Part shown: one piece after another, positions 3,291 through 12,971 of the stretch
Layout of the letters: each line of letters begins with the position of its first letter
Position numbering within the stretch: position 1 is the stretch's first letter
Assembly (NCBI GenBank): GCA_024275575.1
Contig: JAJRYV010000075.1
Span: 1 to 64,000 of the forward strand
Direction: 5' to 3'
DNA from: a bacterium
GTDB taxonomy: Bacteria; Zhuqueibacterota; Zhuqueibacteria; Zhuqueibacterales; Geothermadaptataceae
DNA: 64,000 nucleotides
Made by a program: the position numbers and the translations under genes
The notes under the pieces: model-generated
Seen by the model: only the letters and a program-made list of their open reading frames with translations
Told to the model about the DNA's origin: nothing
Databases searched by the model: none

Positions 3291-6200
3291 TCAATTGGTC
3301 AAAAGTTTTTGCATGCCGGTTTTACCATGTGTGAGAGCTTTTTGCACTAATATCTTGTAATCTTCGAGAATATAATAAAGTGTGGGCACCAGTACCATGG
3401 TGATAAAAGTACCGAACATAACGCCGAATCCCAGTGAAACGGCCATGGGAATCAGGAATTGCGCTTGCACTGATTTTTCCAGCAAAAGCGGCGTCAAACC
3501 GAGGAATGTGGTTAAAGATGTCAGTAAAATCGGTCGGAAACGGCTGACGCCCGCATCGCGAATAGCTTGTGCCAGCGGCACACCTGTCTGCCGTGCCTGA
3601 TTGATAAAATCGACCATGATCAGGCTGTCATTGACGACGACGCCGGTTAACGCGACGATGCCGAAGGCCGAAAGGATGGTCAATTCCATTCCCATCAGCA
3701 CATGCCCCCACACAGCGCCGACGATGCCGAAGGGGATGGCGCTCATGACGATCAGTGGTTGCAGGTAGGAGCGGAAGGGAATCGCCAGCAGGCCGTAAAT
3801 CATGATCATGGCGATGAAGAAACCACGTTTCAGGCCGGCGATTGTCCGTCGCTGTTCCCGTTGTTCTCCTTCGAATGTGTAAGCGATGCTGGGGTGGTCG
3901 GCCACCAGTTGCGGCAAATAATTTTGCCGCAGGTCGGCGAGAATTTCGTTGGGAACGGCGATTTTCAAATCGACATCGGCGGTGACGGAAATTGTGCGTT
4001 GACGGTCGGTACGGTTGATTGTGGCATAACCGCGGCCAAGTCGGGCATTTGCCGCCGTTGAAAACGGCACTTCTCCGCCGCCGGTTACGCGTATGCGCAT
4101 GTTTTCGAGATCACCGAGGCTGCGCCTTTCTGCTGCAGGATAACGAACCATCACCCGGATATCGTCACGGCCGCGCTGAATGCGCTGGGCTTCGGCGCCG
4201 TAAAAAGCCTGGCGTACCTGGTTGCCGAGGTCGAATAATGAAAGCCCGAGGTTTTCCGCTTCCGGGGTGATGCTGAGCTCAATTTCCTGTTTACCCGCCC
4301 GATATGAATCTGAAATATCATAGACGCCGTTATACTGCCGCAATTTCGCCTTCAGTTTCTCTGCAGCCGCGGTCAGCTCCTGATAATTGACGCCGGACAA
4401 CTGCACGTTGATCGGTTCACCCGAGCTCATCAGGGAAGCTGTGAAAGTCAGTTCAACGGCATCGGGAATTGGGCCGTTGAGCTTGCGCCAGCGCCGGGCA
4501 ATTTCCGGACTGGAATATTGGCGGATTTCCGAGGGCGCCAGTTCGATATTGACTTCGCCAAGGTGCGCTTCGGAGAATGTGGCGTCTACCGCACCGTTGT
4601 GACGGCTGCTGCGCACCCGAAACGGCTGCTGGCCGACGGAGGCGAGGATGTGATTAAAAATCGGTGCCTCATCTGTACCATTTCCCTGCTCAATTTCTTT
4701 GCGGAGCTGCAACGCCGATTGCTCTAATTGCTTCACTGCTGCTGCGGTGGCTTCAGCGGGCGTGCCCCGGGGCATGGTCAACAAGGCTACGACATTGTCG
4801 GCGTCAACAGCCGGGAAAAAGATAAACTTGATCCAGCCTCCCGCGATCAGCCCGAATGTTAAAAGAAGTGTGCCCACACCGACGGCAACGCTGGTGTAGC
4901 GAAAATCTAACGCCCATTCAAGCGTCGGTTTGTATAGTTTGTGAATAAAATCCTGCAAACGATCTGAAAAATAGCGCTGAAACCGCGCCCATAAGCCCGG
5001 GTTTTTTTTCTCCGTCATAAAGCTGGAATGACCGAGGTGGGCCGGCAAGATAAACAAGGCTTCGATCAGTGAAAAAGTCAAGGTGGAGATCACCACGATG
5101 GGAATCACTTTCATCACTTTTCCCATGGTGCCCTCGACGTTCAGCAGTGGCCAGAATGCGGCAATCGTTGTCAGTATTGCGAAAACAACCGGCACGGCAA
5201 CCTGTTTTGTCCCTTCGATGGCAGCATCGAGAGGTTTTGCCCCTTTTTCGAGAAATGAATAGACATTTTCCCCGACGACGATGGCATCATCAACGACGAT
5301 GCCCAGCACGACGATAAAGGCAAAAAGGGAAATCAGGTTAATGGAGACATCGTAAATGGGCATCAGCCAGAAAGCGCCGAAAAAGGAAATGACCAGCCCC
5401 ACGGAAACCCATATCGCCAGGCGCAAGCGTAGGAAAAGCGCCAATGAAATAAAGACCAGAATTAGCCCCATGCGACCATTGCGCAGGAGTAAATCGAGAC
5501 GGCTTTTGAGGATTTTAGTATCATCCTGCCAGGTCGTCAGGCTGATGCCCCCGGGCACGCGCAAGCGCGCCTCGACAAGGTATTCCTGCACCGCGGCTGC
5601 GACTTCGAGGGCGCTTTCCTCGCCGACGCGAAATACTTTTAATATCGCCGTGGGTTTGCCGTCGAATCGTGCTGATTGATCGGTATCGGCAAAACCATCA
5701 CGAACAGCCGCCACATTACCGAGATAAAGGCGTGTGCCGTCGGGTGCTGTGCGCAGTAAAATTTTGTCAAATTCAGTGCCATGATAGGCCTGCCCCTTTG
5801 TGCGGATGAGAATTTCTCCACCTCCCGTTTTGACCGAGCCGCCGGGCAAATCGAGAGATGAACGCCGTACGGCACGCACAACTTCATCAAAGGTTAGGCC
5901 GTAGCGCCGCAAATCAGCCTCGGAAACTTCGATGGATATTTCATAAGGGCGAACGTTGGTGAGTTCAACCTGGGTGATATTGGGGTAAACCAGCAGCTCA
6001 TTGCGCATGCGCTCACCGATGGCCTTTAGCGAGCGTTCATCCGTATCACCCGAGATCGCGATATTGATGACCTGATTGCGCATGATAAATTCTTTAATCA
6101 CCGGTTTTTCCGTTTCCAGGGGAAAAGTCTCGATTCCATCGACGCGCATTTTGATTTCATCGAGAACGTCCTGCACCGCGTATCCGTGCTCCACCTCGGC

Positions 6201-6479
6201 GGTGACGGTGCCGAGATTTTCCGCCGCTGTCGAACGAATGCGCTCGATGCCTTCGATATCCTGAATGGCTTCTTCAATTTTAACACAAACCCCTTCTTCC
6301 ACCTCAGTCGGAGCAGCGCCGCGATAAGCGACGCTGATGGTGATACTATCGGTGTTTAATTCCGGAAAAACTTCTTTCTTGATGCCACTGATTGAAATGA
6401 GGCCTGCCGTGATGATGCCGAACATCAGCAAATTGGCGGTGACGGAATTGCGGGCAAACCAATCTATCGCACGGTACAT
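3291..6479 (-). CDS. RND efflux transporter (AcrB/MdtB family permease)
   Basis: 1062 aa, 12-TM RND pattern; GIVVDDAIVVGENV and ALTGVVVNDSLIMVDFIN motifs. Confidence 0.95.
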   Translation of the reverse strand: MYRAIDWFARNSVTANLLMFGIITAGLISISGIKKEVFPELNTDSITISVAYRGAAPTEVEEGVCVKIEEAIQDIEGIERIRSTAAENLGTVTAEVEHGYAVQDVLDEIKMRVDGIETFPLETEKPVIKEFIMRNQVINIAISGDTDERSLKAIGERMRNELLVYPNITQVELTNVRPYEISIEVSEADLRRYGLTFDEVVRAVRRSSLDLPGGSVKTGGGEILIRTKGQAYHGTEFDKILLRTAPDGTRLYLGNVAAVRDGFADTDQSARFDGKPTAILKVFRVGEESALEVAAAVQEYLVEARLRVPGGISLTTWQDDTKILKSRLDLLLRNGRMGLILVFISLALFLRLRLAIWVSVGLVISFFGAFWLMPIYDVSINLISLFAFIVVLGIVVDDAIVVGENVYSFLEKGAKPLDAAIEGTKQVAVPVVFAILTTIAAFWPLLNVEGTMGKVMKVIPIVVISTLTFSLIEALFILPAHLGHSSFMTEKKNPGLWARFQRYFSDRLQDFIHKLYKPTLEWALDFRYTSVAVGVGTLLLTFGLIAGGWIKFIFFPAVDADNVVALLTMPRGTPAEATAAAVKQLEQSALQLRKEIEQGNGTDEAPIFNHILASVGQQPFRVRSSRHNGAVDATFSEAHLGEVNIELAPSEIRQYSSPEIARRWRKLNGPIPDAVELTFTASLMSSGEPINVQLSGVNYQELTAAAEKLKAKLRQYNGVYDISDSYRAGKQEIELSITPEAENLGLSLFDLGNQVRQAFYGAEAQRIQRGRDDIRVMVRYPAAERRSLGDLENMRIRVTGGGEVPFSTAANARLGRGYATINRTDRQRTISVTADVDLKIAVPNEILADLRQNYLPQLVADHPSIAYTFEGEQREQRRTIAGLKRGFFIAMIMIYGLLAIPFRSYLQPLIVMSAIPFGIVGAVWGHVLMGMELTILSAFGIVALTGVVVNDSLIMVDFINQARQTGVPLAQAIRDAGVSRFRPILLTSLTTFLGLTPLLLEKSVQAQFLIPMAVSLGFGVMFGTFITMVLVPTLYYILEDYKILVQKALTHGKTGMQKLLTN

Positions 6480-6518
6480 TTTATCTCCTGCATGGATTTA
6501 AAAATATCGGTGAAACTT

Positions 6519-7682
6519 TTAATTATACACACGCACCTGCATGCCGTTGACAAACGCTTCCAGTGGCGAAATACAAATTTCGTCACCGTCCGACAGACCT
6601 CGGGTAACAATCGCAGTTTCATCGTAAATCCGGGCGATCTCAACAGGACGATAGTGCAAGGTTTGATCTTTATTGACGATTAAAACCTGGTCACCGTCGC
6701 GCAGGGCGATGCGGGGAATGGCCGCAATATTTTTAAAAATTTTACCATGAATCTGCGCTTTTACAAAAAAACCTACAGCGAGAGGCGGGCTGTTGGGGTT
6801 CGTTTTATGGCCGTAGGGGTCTACAATTCGTGCAACAGCATGCAGCATGCGGCTGCGCGCGTCGATTTCGCCTTCCATGCGCACGATGCGCGCCGGCCAG
6901 CTATGTGTTTTCCCGGCAAAATTTGCCGTCAGGGTGACTTTCGGACCGGCGATTTTTCCGCTTTCGCCGCGATAGTTTAACGGCAAATCGAGATAGGCGA
7001 GCTGCTTGTCCGGAATCGGCAGGCGAATTTCCGCATAGTCAACAGCATAGATGACCGCCAGGGCTATGCCCGGATTGACATACTGACCGACATCGACGTT
7101 TTTTTTACGCACACGTCCGCTGAAAGGGGCACGGATTTTTGTCCGCTGCCTATTGAGCTCGGCCTGCTGCAAGCGGGCTTTCCCAGCATTGAGCGAGGCC
7201 AGCGCTTCTTTCAGTTGCGGTTCGCGCAGCACCAGCTTTGAAGGTTCACCTTTGCCCAGCCGCTGCCATTCATCTTTGGCAATGCGCGCCTCTTCCTGTT
7301 CACGGCGATAACGTAATTCAGCCTGGGCAACCTGTGCTTCAGCCTGGATTTTTGCCAGTTTATAATCACGGTCATCGATCCTGACGAGGATTTCATTTTT
7401 CTCAAAAAAGCCGCCGGCCGCGAACGCTCGGGCAACGAAAGTCACCTGCCCGGAAACCTGGGCGATGAGGGCGCTTTCCGTACGCGGTGCAACCGTCCCC
7501 TGAGAGCGCACGATCATTTGCATGTCTTTCTTTTCAACTTTAAATGTACGAATCAATGGTCGTGTAAGCTCCGCCGGCCTGTATGCAACTTTGGGTCGTG
7601 TGAAAAATAAAATTGCGGAAATGGCAACAGCGCCAAAGATGATCAGAATCGGCAGAATTATTTTTAATGTATATGTTCGCAT
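6519..7682 (-). CDS. RND efflux periplasmic adaptor (membrane fusion protein)
   Basis: N-terminal TM, biotin-lipoyl-like hairpin, RAPFSGRV motif; operon with RND pump. Confidence 0.93.
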   Translation of the reverse strand: MRTYTLKIILPILIIFGAVAISAILFFTRPKVAYRPAELTRPLIRTFKVEKKDMQMIVRSQGTVAPRTESALIAQVSGQVTFVARAFAAGGFFEKNEILVRIDDRDYKLAKIQAEAQVAQAELRYRREQEEARIAKDEWQRLGKGEPSKLVLREPQLKEALASLNAGKARLQQAELNRQRTKIRAPFSGRVRKKNVDVGQYVNPGIALAVIYAVDYAEIRLPIPDKQLAYLDLPLNYRGESGKIAGPKVTLTANFAGKTHSWPARIVRMEGEIDARSRMLHAVARIVDPYGHKTNPNSPPLAVGFFVKAQIHGKIFKNIAAIPRIALRDGDQVLIVNKDQTLHYRPVEIARIYDETAIVTRGLSDGDEICISPLEAFVNGMQVRVYN

Positions 7683-7749
7683 CGATTACTCCGGTAATTT
7701 GAATCAGCCGCCGGCAAGTGCAATGCTGATCTGCGTCGTTAAGTTAATA

Positions 7750-9165
7750 TCAGTTTATTGCCTCGCCGCTAAACCCGCCGCCCAATGCTAAATATAAGCT
7801 AACCCGGGCTTCAAGGCGCATGCGTTGTACGTTGAGCAACTGGCTCTCGGCATCAAATGCCCGGCGCTGCGCTTCGAGCACGGTGATCAGATCGCTGACC
7901 CCGGAATAATAACGGGATTCGGCCAGGCTGCGGGAAGCGAGCGCCTGGTTGGTCGCCAGCCGTAAAGTTTCTTCCTGCCGGCTGAGATATTTTTCGGCCG
8001 CCAGGGCGTTTTCTACCTCGGCAAAAGCCGTGAGCACTTTATCGGCATAAGCGGCGAGGGCTTGCTGATTTTGCGCTTTCGCAAGTTTGACCGCTGCCCA
8101 TAATCGACCTCCCTGAAAAATCGGCTGAACGATATTTCCGGCGATATTCCAGACGAGAAAATCCTGGTTGAGCAATTCGTTGTATTCGATGGGGCTGGTA
8201 CCACGGCTGCCGCTGATCGCAAGGCGTGGCAAAAAAGCCAATTTCGCCTGTTTAATGCTGATTTTGCTGGCGGCGAGCATGCGCTCCGCTGTGTATAAAT
8301 CAGGGCGTCGGAATAATAATTCAGCCGGTAAACCGACCGGAACTGCTGCCGAAATCTCCGGCAGTTCCGGTGAAATCTCGAGGGTCGCTGCAGGATAATT
8401 GCCCATCAACACCTCTAACTGCCGCAGCGCTTGCTCGGCAAGCATTTGTCGCTGCACGAGAAAGGATTCAGCCGTGGAAACGTTGGTCTCCGCGAGCATG
8501 AGATCGATCGACGGACGTAGTCCTTTTTTATAACGTTGTTTAATTTGATCGCGTGTGGCGGTAAAGTTCTTCAGCGTCGAGGCAGCCAGTTGCACTTGTT
8601 TTTTCCCCTCTACCGCCGCCAGCCAGGTTTTTACCGCCAGGCCGCTGATGGACAAGCGAGCGGCATGATAGTCAGCCCCCGTGGCCTGGATTTGCGCATT
8701 GGCCGCTGATTTTGCCGCGCGAACACGGCCCCACAAATCGATTTCCCAACTGACATCGGCCGAGAGACCGTAAACGATCGATTTTGATTCTAAAATGGCA
8801 TTGGGCGGCGCGTTGGGTATTGGCAGACCAACATATATCTGTTTTCGTTTGGCGCCGAAATTATTTGCTGAAACAGAGGGATAAAGCGGCGCGCCGGCAA
8901 TTGTCGCCTGCGCTCTGGCGGCGTCGATATTGGCTGCGGCAATTTTCAGATTGTAGTTGTTTTTTAATGTCGTCTTTAAAATTTTTGTCAGGCTGGAATC
9001 GGCAAAATTTGTCCACCACTGCGATTCGACTTCTCCGGTGAATTGATTTTCATTTTCCCATTTTTCACGAGTTATATTTTCGATTTTCGGATGATCAATT
9101 TTTGGAGGATGGGCGCAGGAAAAAAGGATGAGCAGGTATCCGCAATAGAAACTCGGTTTAAACAT
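7750..9165 (-). CDS. TolC/NodT-family outer-membrane efflux lipoprotein
   Basis: Lipobox-like N-terminus (ILFSCAH), RRPDLYTAERML and GGRLWAAVKLAKAQNQQALAAY motifs; first gene of efflux operon. Confidence 0.93.
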   Translation of the reverse strand: MFKPSFYCGYLLILFSCAHPPKIDHPKIENITREKWENENQFTGEVESQWWTNFADSSLTKILKTTLKNNYNLKIAAANIDAARAQATIAGAPLYPSVSANNFGAKRKQIYVGLPIPNAPPNAILESKSIVYGLSADVSWEIDLWGRVRAAKSAANAQIQATGADYHAARLSISGLAVKTWLAAVEGKKQVQLAASTLKNFTATRDQIKQRYKKGLRPSIDLMLAETNVSTAESFLVQRQMLAEQALRQLEVLMGNYPAATLEISPELPEISAAVPVGLPAELLFRRPDLYTAERMLAASKISIKQAKLAFLPRLAISGSRGTSPIEYNELLNQDFLVWNIAGNIVQPIFQGGRLWAAVKLAKAQNQQALAAYADKVLTAFAEVENALAAEKYLSRQEETLRLATNQALASRSLAESRYYSGVSDLITVLEAQRRAFDAESQLLNVQRMRLEARVSLYLALGGGFSGEAIN

Positions 9166-9260: not shown

Positions 9261-12200
9261 TTAGGTTAGAAGTCGCCGGCAGGCCTCGCGGACAAAGTTT
9301 GTGTGCCGATGAATATCGCGCTGTAAATCTTTCAGCGAGTCATAACCCATGCGCCGGGCGAGAAATGCAAATTGCTCAGTACCGGCTACAGGCACAGTAA
9401 GGTCTCTCGCATTGCCGCGCACCATACGCAGTGCTTCGATGATTTTGCGCATGAAAACATGTGCCGCGCTGAGCTGTTCAAAATCTGTTTTTGTGAGAAT
9501 TTTATGCTCAAAAAGCGCTTGCATCGCATCTCGCGTATTAGCGACGCGCAAGGCAGCATTCTGTGCGCCATGGGTGATCTGTAATCCTTGCACTAAAAAT
9601 TCAATATCGACAAGGGCGCCTGAACTGAATTTTGCATTCATCGTGCCGCCGGCAACAAGCTGGCGGATCTGCCTTTCTCGCATAGCCCGCATCGATTGGC
9701 TGTCGAAAGGCTTGCCGCTATAAAGACAGTGGTCACGAACCTGCAAAACTTGCCGGCCAAACTGTGTATCGCCGGCGATATGGCGCATTTTAACCAGCGC
9801 CTGGCGTTCATAATTCCACGCGGCACCCTCGGCGGTGAAATATTTCTCAAAAGCAGCGAGGGGTACGGCATAGCTGCCGGCTTTGCCGTATGGGCGCAGC
9901 CGTAAATCGATCTCAAAAATTCCCTTACGTTTAGCGATGATCGATTGCGAAACGGCGATGACGAGCTTGTTATAAAACTCAGCATTTGAGATGATTCGTT
10001 CGCCATTGGTTTTGCCTTCACCGGAATAAATAAATATCAGCTCGATATCCGACCCAAATCCGATTTCGCGACCGCCGAATTTTCCCAGCGCGCAAATAGA
10101 TAATTTACACGGGGTGCCCTCTGCCAGCAAGGGCAGGCCGTGTTTGGCAAAGAGCTCGTCAAAAGTTATTGAATAGGCCGCAGTGAGCACAACCTCGCCC
10201 AAATCCGACAATTCACTGGAAAACCGGTGGAAATTTGGGGTGATATTCTGGATATAGCGCATATCGATGCGGAACATTTCGCGGTCTTTAAATTCGTTGA
10301 GCACTTTGCGCTTGTCTGCCGGGTTCTGTCTCGTCATCAGAGCGAAGCGCAGGTCTTTTTCCAATTTTTCCCGCGGCACCGGTTGTTCCAGTTCCCCGAC
10401 ATTCGTGAGCACCGGAAAGATATTTTGATGCTGCATGCGCAGAAAATCCTGCCATAAAAATTCGCTCACCCCGAGCAGATTTGCCAGAGCCTGCAAAACT
10501 TCAGGGCGCTCGAGGCTGGCGAGTTCGAAAGGCCAGTCTTCCAGGGTGAACAGTTGGGCAAGAAATTCACGAAAATGCAGCATCGCCGATTCAGGATTGG
10601 GTGATTGTGGTAACAAATGGGTAAAATGCTTCACCAGCACCGCAGCAGCACGCAACTGGTTTTGTTTGCGCTCATCGGTAATTTTGTTGCCTTCGGTATC
10701 GCACATGAAAATGGTATCATGCACCCGGCCGTCGAGGGAACTGACATTGACGCGTGAAATATACACGCCATTCAGCGCCAAAGCGTTGGTGAATTCATAT
10801 AAAAAACCCACAGTGTCCGGCGCATCGAGGCGCATCACGGTGTAATTTTCCGACGAACTGTTATCGATGGCAATTTCAATGGGCAGCAACGTTGCCGTTG
10901 GCATTTCGATTTTTTTCAGCGCCAGTGCGACTTTTTTCGCCAGCTCACCCTGTGATTTGCCCTGCATTCCGGCTTGTAACTCGGTCAATAAAGCATTGAG
11001 TTCCTGATGGTACTGCGGCCAAACGGCGGCCTTGAGTGGCGCTACCAGGCAGCGCACGGTGAAAACATCGATAATTTTCCGCCGGCCATTTTTAACAGCG
11101 ATATTCTGCGGGCGAAAACGCCTGTTTCGTGAAACAGGTCGGCGTTTTTGCTGCGGTTTGTTTTCCTGTCCGGGTTCATAAGTGAAGATTTCACCATTCT
11201 CAATATCCAGTCCGAAAACAAAAAGCAAACCGCAAATCAGCGAAAGCTCGCCGGGGAAATCGAAAGCAGCGACAGTGAGCCGCCAGCGATGCTCATCGAG
11301 TGCATAAGCGGAAATTTCAACGAGATTATCGCTTTTTACACGAGCTAAAAGAGCGGCGTGCCCGGCTATCTCTTCCCTTGAAAATGTTTGCAGGTAGGTG
11401 GTATCCAGCCGGTTGAGGTGTTCATGCAACGGCGTATCGCCGGAGAATTTGTTTTGCCTTCGAATTATCCGGCCCGCTGTTTCAGCGGTGGAACAAATAT
11501 AATGGTCATAGAGGCTGCGAATTGCCTGACTGTGTTGATGATAACGGTCGACAAAATTTTTACCGGCTTTTTTACCGGCGAAACCCAGTCGCAGTGCGAG
11601 AAAATGCAGTTCCCGCTCATCTTCGGGAAGTTTGTGAACCTGCTGATTATGCATAATTTGCAGATAATGTTCAGCTGTGCGCAAAAAGCGATAGCCCTCG
11701 GAAAGCGTATTAAAATCCTGTGCCGGCAAAAAATTACTTACCGCCAGGCGCGCCAGGCCATCGAGCGTATTGCGGCTGCGGATTTCGGGGTGCATTCTGC
11801 CGTGTGCTATTTGCAAAAATTGTGTGATGAATTCCACATCACGAATCGAACCTTTGCCTCCTTTAACCTCACCCCATTTTTGCCCTTTGTTTTTCAGGTT
11901 GGCTTCGATTTCCTGTTTCATCTGCTGGATTTCCCGGCGCACGTCCTGCTGCGGCAGCTTGAAGATTTCAGGCCTGATTTTATCAAAAACAGCCGCGCTC
12001 ACTGTTTCGTCTCCGGCGATACGCCGGCTTTTTAACCAGGCCTGCTTTTCCCAGATGCGCGCATGCCTGGCAAAGTATTGCAGCATTTCCCCGATGCCGG
12101 GAACCAGTACACCCGAGCGGCCCCAGGGACGCAGCCGCATATCCACGCGAAAGAGAAAACCCTCGGCAGTTGTTTTGCTTAAAATTTCGATCAGTTTTTG

Positions 12201-12971
12201 TCCAAGCCGCTGAAATTGCGGTTGATTTTCACTCGCGAGGAAAATCAGATCGATATCGGAGCTGTAATTGAGCTCGCGGCCGCCGAGTTTTCCCAGGGCG
12301 ATAACACAAAAGTTTTCCGCTGGAATTTGCAGCTCATTTGAGGCTAAATATAGCGAGGCGCTGACGATTCTGCGGGCCAGCAGCGAAAGCTGGGAAATGA
12401 TAAATTCCAGATCGAGCAGACCAAACAAATCACAGGCGCCAATGCGCAGCAACTCGCGTTTCTGATAAATCCGCAGGGCATTCAGCGATTCGCTGTAATT
12501 TGTGCAGCGCTGCAGTTTTTCACGAATTTCTGCATCGATATGCGCCCGGCTTTTTGGTTGTGCCAGTGTTTTGGGATTTTTTAACTTTTCAAAAAACCGC
12601 GGCCGGCTAAGCAAAACTTCGCTGAGAAACTGGCTGCCGGCGAACAGCTGGATGAGCATTTCGAGGCTGCGTGGCTCCTCAGCTAGCGCTTTGTAGAGCT
12701 GCACGGCTTCGCTATAACGCTCGGTAAAATGTTCAAAATTGAGCATCGCCTGATCGGGATTAGCCGAGTTTTGCAGGTTGAAAAGCATGACGGGAAGAAT
12801 TTCCAGCAGGGCGATTTGTCTATCGGCGCTGCTGCCAAGCCGTTGCAAACAGCTCCGCGCTTTTTGCCAATCGGTAAAACCAGTAGCCTGCAGAAGGGCT
12901 TTACTTTCGGATAGATATTCATCCCTGCCAGAAAACAGGATATGGGCATTTTTGTAAATCGATGTCGGCAT
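9261..12971 (-). CDS. glnE: GlnE-like bifunctional glutamine synthetase adenylyltransferase/deadenylase with two internal ACT domains
   Basis: 1236 aa; N-term nucleotidyltransferase motif ALGKLGGRELNYSSDIDLIFL and C-term ALGKFGGREIGFGSDIELIFIY; two GlnD-like ACT segments between the halves. Confidence 0.88.
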   Translation of the reverse strand: MPTSIYKNAHILFSGRDEYLSESKALLQATGFTDWQKARSCLQRLGSSADRQIALLEILPVMLFNLQNSANPDQAMLNFEHFTERYSEAVQLYKALAEEPRSLEMLIQLFAGSQFLSEVLLSRPRFFEKLKNPKTLAQPKSRAHIDAEIREKLQRCTNYSESLNALRIYQKRELLRIGACDLFGLLDLEFIISQLSLLARRIVSASLYLASNELQIPAENFCVIALGKLGGRELNYSSDIDLIFLASENQPQFQRLGQKLIEILSKTTAEGFLFRVDMRLRPWGRSGVLVPGIGEMLQYFARHARIWEKQAWLKSRRIAGDETVSAAVFDKIRPEIFKLPQQDVRREIQQMKQEIEANLKNKGQKWGEVKGGKGSIRDVEFITQFLQIAHGRMHPEIRSRNTLDGLARLAVSNFLPAQDFNTLSEGYRFLRTAEHYLQIMHNQQVHKLPEDERELHFLALRLGFAGKKAGKNFVDRYHQHSQAIRSLYDHYICSTAETAGRIIRRQNKFSGDTPLHEHLNRLDTTYLQTFSREEIAGHAALLARVKSDNLVEISAYALDEHRWRLTVAAFDFPGELSLICGLLFVFGLDIENGEIFTYEPGQENKPQQKRRPVSRNRRFRPQNIAVKNGRRKIIDVFTVRCLVAPLKAAVWPQYHQELNALLTELQAGMQGKSQGELAKKVALALKKIEMPTATLLPIEIAIDNSSSENYTVMRLDAPDTVGFLYEFTNALALNGVYISRVNVSSLDGRVHDTIFMCDTEGNKITDERKQNQLRAAAVLVKHFTHLLPQSPNPESAMLHFREFLAQLFTLEDWPFELASLERPEVLQALANLLGVSEFLWQDFLRMQHQNIFPVLTNVGELEQPVPREKLEKDLRFALMTRQNPADKRKVLNEFKDREMFRIDMRYIQNITPNFHRFSSELSDLGEVVLTAAYSITFDELFAKHGLPLLAEGTPCKLSICALGKFGGREIGFGSDIELIFIYSGEGKTNGERIISNAEFYNKLVIAVSQSIIAKRKGIFEIDLRLRPYGKAGSYAVPLAAFEKYFTAEGAAWNYERQALVKMRHIAGDTQFGRQVLQVRDHCLYSGKPFDSQSMRAMRERQIRQLVAGGTMNAKFSSGALVDIEFLVQGLQITHGAQNAALRVANTRDAMQALFEHKILTKTDFEQLSAAHVFMRKIIEALRMVRGNARDLTVPVAGTEQFAFLARRMGYDSLKDLQRDIHRHTNFVREACRRLLT

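Follow-up and report, generated by a model that had tools for sequence, protein, structure and literature searches.

How many proteins does a bacterium need to adjust its glutamine synthetase (GS) to the supply of glutamine? The question is raised by a gene at positions 9261 to 12971 of the window, by which we mean the whole 64,000-nucleotide stretch analysed here (contig JAJRYV010000075.1; its genome is G000 in our survey). The gene encodes a GlnE, the enzyme that adenylylates and deadenylylates GS, with a pair of GlnD-type ACT domains between its two halves, hereafter ACT-GlnE. GlnD, PII and GlnE form a textbook multi-layer cascade, which raises the question why it has so many layers. In E. 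coli, adenylylation by GlnE is stimulated by unmodified PII and glutamine and removal of the AMP group by PII-UMP (PMC6490700), and GlnD is the glutamine sensor, presumably via its C-terminal ACT pair (PMC3173338). We consider it likely that ACT-GlnE is a bifunctional GlnE with a transplanted glutamine-sensing module of GlnD, in which glutamine on the ACT pair would set the balance of the two halves and thereby replace the relay that runs from GlnD through PII or PII-UMP to GlnE.

A GlnD-type ACT module between two GlnE halves

The gene and its parts are arranged as follows:

9261..12971, minus strand: ACT-GlnE gene, consisting of GlnE N-half, GlnD-type ACT module and GlnE C-half (ATG start, 1236 amino acids)
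11505..12971, minus strand: N-terminal half, residues 1-489, corresponding to the adenylyl-removing (AR) domain of E. coli GlnE (PF03710 at 104-327, PF08335 at 350-489)
10647..11435, minus strand: GlnD-derived regulatory module, residues 513-775, with lead-in 'Y..FSxEEIxxHA', ACT1, spacer and ACT2 (TIGR01693, HHalign)
10974..11321, minus strand: ACT1, about residues 551-666, with the invariant glycine G574 in the beta1-alpha1 loop (FDFPGELS; predicted secondary structure, Foldseek)
11079..11177, minus strand: basic, disordered loop of variable length inside ACT1, residues 599-631 (low pLDDT, the predicted local distance difference test)
10605..10877, minus strand: ACT2, about residues 699-789, motif DAPDTxGFLYEFTNAL, the last helix extending into the C-half (PF24931, structural model, HHalign)
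9264..10604, minus strand: C-terminal half, residues 790-1236, corresponding to the adenylyltransferase (AT) domain of E. coli GlnE (PF03710 at 9741-10493, PF08335 at 9270-9692)
10041..10049, minus strand: metal motif D975-I-E977 of the C-half (DxE, from the alignment)

The original prediction, a GlnE with both nucleotidyltransferase halves and two GlnD-like ACT domains between them, was confirmed. Pfam recognised two GlnE and two GlnD_UR_UTase domains in the 1236-residue protein, with both GlnE halves intact, and the cut-off of PRK11072, the full-length GlnE equivalog of NCBIfam, was passed (500.6 versus 487 bits). The N-half matched the E. coli GlnE domain 1v4a at 7.6e-49, and in a predicted model of 1200 residues (pLDDT 83) the halves matched 1v4a (TMt 0.78) and 3k7d (TMt 0.75). 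Acidic metal-binding motifs occur in both halves, namely D239xD241...D277 in the AR half, where the alignment places them in the catalytic-type motifs SSDIDLIF (D239, D241) and RVDMRLRP (D277), and D975xE977...D1022 in the AT half. In the latter motif, each of the 41 aligned ACT-GlnEs has DxE, as opposed to DxD in E. coli GlnE and the ordinary GlnEs of the window's phylum. Judging by nucleotidyltransferases of the pol-beta type in general, DxE should be compatible with activity, and by its sequence this clade-wide exchange of D for E is a conservative one.

The middle of the protein is a GlnD-type module, and its GlnD origin includes the lead-in and the spacer. It forms the best stretch of the match to TIGR01693, the GlnD model, residues 513-775 aligning with model positions 618-843 of 850. 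The protein is not itself a GlnD, since the cut-off of this model is not reached (87.3 versus 519.4 bits) and no HD domain was found. When a profile of the middle built from 32 family members was compared with five GlnD C-termini by HHalign, the probability was 99.8% (E 5.6e-28, 236 columns), and the match spanned the lead-in (Y..F..EIA.H) and the spacer as well as both ACT domains. Pfam reported one ACT-type match, PF24931 at residues 700-774, which lies just above its cut-off (27.5 bits, cut-off 27), and a weak one to PF01842. Structure prediction of the middle, which could have spoken against ACT domains, gave two beta-alpha-beta-beta-alpha units with AlphaFold2 on the family alignment (mean pLDDT 86.7), and Foldseek assigned this model to ACT domains, among them the GL3 ACT domain (TMt 0.78), the regulatory domain of threonine dehydratase and the large glutamate dehydrogenase. 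A search of the PDB with the module by sequence returned no matching chain. A chance match or mis-reading of the middle is ruled out by TIGR01693, HHalign, AlphaFold2 and Foldseek together.

One detail had to be corrected. The basic stretch QQKRRPVSRNRRFRPQ had been taken as the joint between the two ACT domains. It is instead a low-pLDDT loop between two strands of ACT1, and in the predicted structure the two ACT domains are joined by some 50-70 residues of largely helical spacer. Across the 32 family members the basic loop has a median length of 31 residues and a median charge of +5 (range -4 to +9). Invariant residues are present in both ACT domains. When the protein is aligned with E. coli GlnE and with two of the phylum's ordinary GlnEs, the module falls opposite the linker that ordinarily joins the halves. 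We therefore reject a simple insertion and prefer a replacement of this linker.

ACT-GlnE thus shares with ordinary GlnE (E. coli glnE; PRK11072; PF03710 and PF08335) the two nucleotidyltransferase halves and their order, the catalytic-type motifs and the match to 1v4a and 3k7d, along with the target tyrosine of GS in the genome, and differs from it by some 260 residues of GlnD type in place of the linker and by DxE rather than DxD in the AT half. With the C-terminal ACT pair of GlnD (uridylyltransferase/uridylyl-removing enzyme; TIGR01693) it shares lead-in, ACT1, spacer and ACT2, all of which align, but it lacks the HD domain and the uridylyltransferase context and has a long basic loop in the ACT1 hairpin. 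GlnD-like ACT repeats also occur in the plant proteins ACR9 and ACR11, for which a role as glutamine sensors has been proposed (PMC3173338). PF24931, the family matching ACT2, was built from plant ACR9; unlike ACT-GlnE, plant ACR proteins are described as ACT-domain repeats and not as nucleotidyltransferases.

Recurrence and descent of the architecture

A scan with the middle region, covering one genome per species, yielded 317 candidate loci, and details were taken from the best 80 of these 317. The 80 loci belong to Planctomycetota, Chloroflexota, Calditrichota/KSB1 and, in one case, Abditibacteriota, and nearly all uncut frames among them encode 1185-1420 amino acids. Since the architecture recurs at no fewer than 80 loci in several phyla, a chimeric assembly or one-off oddity was rejected. 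ACT-GlnE is an old, widespread family and not an isolated case. The spacing of the halves gives a further measure of the architecture. Within 151 genomes of Anaerolineae, the class of carrier G081, the two PF08335 matches of GlnE lie 2064-2463 bp apart in all 32 genes whose halves are not split between contigs, and the value for the window's gene (2235 bp) falls into this range. Measured by PF03710, the distance in the window is 2250 bp, and two ordinary GlnEs have distances of 1500 and 1662 bp.

In a phylogenetic tree, which was a quick build without bootstrap and with long outgroup branches, the ACT-GlnEs form one clade (SH-aLRT 98) that excludes the ordinary GlnEs. Planctomycetota (100) and Calditrichota/KSB1 (99) each form one group within it, and the sequences from Chloroflexota are scattered near the base. 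The GlnD C-terminus was probably captured once, at the joint of the GlnE halves, and the branching would fit a single capture followed by descent and perhaps by transfer between phyla.

GlnD, PII and GlnA in carrier genomes

The suggestion that the window's genome might lack glnD was borne out: in G000 (97.7% complete) no match to TIGR01693 exceeded the cut-off and PF08335 was found solely in ACT-GlnE. A candidate on another contig, an HD-type match on C53, looks like an enzyme of the CCA-adding type and was discarded. We extended the survey for GlnD to 50 genomes with ACT-GlnE. A full GlnD is present in 20 of the 21 carriers from Planctomycetota, while it was found in none of the 27 from Calditrichota/KSB1 and Chloroflexota, leaving aside a Dehalococcoidia genome. 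The Dehalococcoidia and Abditibacteriota carriers gave sub-threshold GlnD matches, which extend over the protein in separate segments. For the 44 Chloroflexota carriers, GlnD was scored as absent in 26 by PF08335 search alone. The sole planctomycete carrier in which GlnD was not found (G092, L058, Planctomyces sp. NAT128) gave no more than a weak PII match; its record of 4.3 Mb may be incomplete.

The same relationship is seen within the window's phylum. Among its 82 genomes, 12 have a GlnE, which is ordinary in four (those of G110 and G112 are cut by contig ends, and the absence of the module was judged on the remaining part) and an ACT-GlnE in eight. All four genomes with ordinary GlnE have GlnD, and none of the eight with ACT-GlnE does (Fisher p 0.002, uncorrected for kinship). 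Both states even occur in one family, with ordinary GlnE plus GlnD in G113 and ACT-GlnE with no GlnD found in G114. Of the relatives that have GlnD, G111 and G112 carry ordinary glnE and glnD side by side in convergent orientation (L142, L146), and the PII gene adjoins glnA in G111 and G113 (L184, L193). We also noted another family of double nucleotidyltransferases of about 990-1010 amino acids with a GlnE/GlnD-like helical domain. These proteins are 22-25% identical to GlnE, occur frequently where genomes of the window's phylum lack GlnE (L013-L016; many frames near 1000 amino acids) and carry the motif GGHGREQAFDDDYDL in L014.

Canonical PII is also missing from most of the GlnD-less carriers. 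A PF00543 search of the Calditrichota/KSB1 carriers gave no match in seven of ten, one of the seven being 67% complete. G001 and G073 have solely divergent PII-like genes without the T-loop tyrosine, and the one in G001, a sister genome of G000 with no PII gene beside glnA, contains an in-frame stop in addition. G000 itself has a PII gene between an NtrC-type gene and glnA (L005, about 1430-1830, contig C81) which retains the T-loop tyrosine and is interrupted in the assembly by one frameshift; this could reflect decay or a sequencing error. Its two further PII-like genes (L003 and L004, contig C110) lie beside RND pump genes, each directly following a large one of the CusA/CzcA type, and an in-frame TAG occurs close to the start of the copy at L003. 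In Chloroflexota, where PII was called canonical when it scored over 80 bits, nine of 44 carriers have such a protein and 35 do not, among the latter the complete chromosome CP059258.1 (G081). In all nine the PII gene is adjoined by amtB, and the T-loop tyrosine at about position 51 is kept in every carrier PII read out from this phylum. Because GlnD and canonical PII are both missing from many genomes, ACT-GlnE cannot depend on either of them there.

The presumed target, in turn, retains its adenylylation site. The main GlnA of G000 carries DKDIYDLSPEE where the E. coli protein is adenylylated, with the tyrosine kept, and the GlnAs read from other carriers have the same motif. In G000, glnA adjoins the gene for an NtrC-type regulator and is located on a different contig from ACT-glnE. 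Elsewhere, 14 of the 31 fetched loci from Calditrichota/KSB1 and Chloroflexota contain glnA along with ACT-glnE, for the most part as immediate neighbours, as against none of the 48 from Planctomycetota. The two genes are adjacent in G114 as well. Further differences from ordinary GlnE are this frequent linkage to glnA and the occurrence in genomes that lack GlnD and mostly canonical PII. In the window, ACT-glnE is directly followed downstream by a gene set for tripartite efflux (RND pump, membrane fusion protein and TolC-like outer membrane protein, by a look at the sequences; 3291-9165, minus strand).

Proposed direct glutamine sensing and its alternatives

With the AR and AT halves separated by the ACT pair of GlnD, and with GlnD and in most cases PII missing, direct allosteric control of both halves by glutamine is the most economical reading. 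Glutamine would bind to the ACT pair, as the GlnD origin of the module leads us to infer, and would shift the balance between AR and AT. At high glutamine adenylylation would be favoured and GS activity would fall, while at low glutamine removal of AMP would be favoured and GS activity would rise, so that one protein acting on one target would stand in for the relay. Compared with the E. coli cascade of GlnD, PII, GlnE and GS, the output is again adenylylation of GS and the input presumably again glutamine, but GlnD is missing, canonical PII is usually missing, sensor and effector form one polypeptide and an input by 2-oxoglutarate is not evident. For Chloroflexota and Calditrichota/KSB1 we are inclined, with some reserve, to go further and to propose that the bicyclic cascade has given way to a device of two genes and one cycle, glnA and ACT-glnE, in which glutamine is read via the captured ACT pair, GS is adenylylated without GlnD or PII, and any PII that has been kept serves AmtB only.

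Several observations weigh against this interpretation. Planctomycetota retain GlnD and PII alongside ACT-GlnE. The original idea that the two layers of nitrogen control are merged and GlnD and PII bypassed hence has support from genome content in the window's lineage and Chloroflexota and is not general; in Planctomycetota the ACT pair might add a second, direct glutamine input. Canonical PII was found in only one of 20 GlnE-less Anaerolineae. Its loss is therefore a trait of the class, and the notion that it resulted from the acquisition of ACT-GlnE was abandoned as unsupported. Most carriers are metagenome-assembled genomes, so that an individual absence counts for little, but the pattern is consistent. 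The DxE motif of the AT half could indicate altered activity. Finally, E. coli GlnE has no ACT domains and is nevertheless responsive to glutamine (PMC6490700), and the ACT pair could consequently be redundant or bind another ligand.

This last point leads to an alternative in which the GlnD-derived pair binds another small molecule, be it a different amino acid or a nucleotide, or serves dimerisation, while glutamine, as with the E. coli enzyme, acts elsewhere on the protein. Many amino acids are known as ligands of ACT domains, and the Foldseek matches include those of isoleucine, serine and threonine type. We nevertheless regard this as unlikely, given that the module is specifically that of GlnD, with lead-in and spacer, and sits on an enzyme that modifies GS. 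Still less probable is a functionally ordinary GlnE whose ACT pair is carried along neutrally or has degenerated, GS being regulated by its level or by feedback. Such a view could draw on the provenance of most members from metagenomes and on an AT half whose activity DxE might reduce, but the module has been conserved in several phyla, both ACT domains contain invariant residues, and the motifs of nucleotidyltransferase type are kept in both halves. Hardly credible, finally, is that ACT-GlnE performs both tasks of the cascade and, as a substitute for GlnD, modifies not only GS but also the T-loop of PII, or else another protein. The T-loop tyrosine in every canonical PII read out from GlnD-less Chloroflexota, and in the frameshifted PII of G000, would be in line with this. 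Canonical PII is, however, absent from most GlnD-less carriers, the PII genes of Chloroflexota adjoin amtB and not glnE, Planctomycetota have GlnD, and the gene companion of ACT-glnE is glnA.

In the full-text literature, coverage of which mostly excludes subscription papers, we found no description of this architecture, an ACT domain within GlnE; it may well be recorded, uncommented, in public databases of protein domains. Since ACT-GlnE occurs without GlnD and mostly without PII in two bacterial groups, one protein may do the work of the classic three-protein control chain there, which makes it a candidate mechanism of nitrogen control for Anaerolineae and Calditrichota. A fusion of sensor and effector without the middle layers is a natural experiment on what these layers contribute, be it an input of 2-oxoglutarate or energy status, amplification, or fan-out to AmtB and NtrB. 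ACT-GlnE renders the purpose of the GlnD and PII layers testable, also in cultured planctomycetes such as Planctopirus hydrillae, and may provide parts for compact synthetic nitrogen control.

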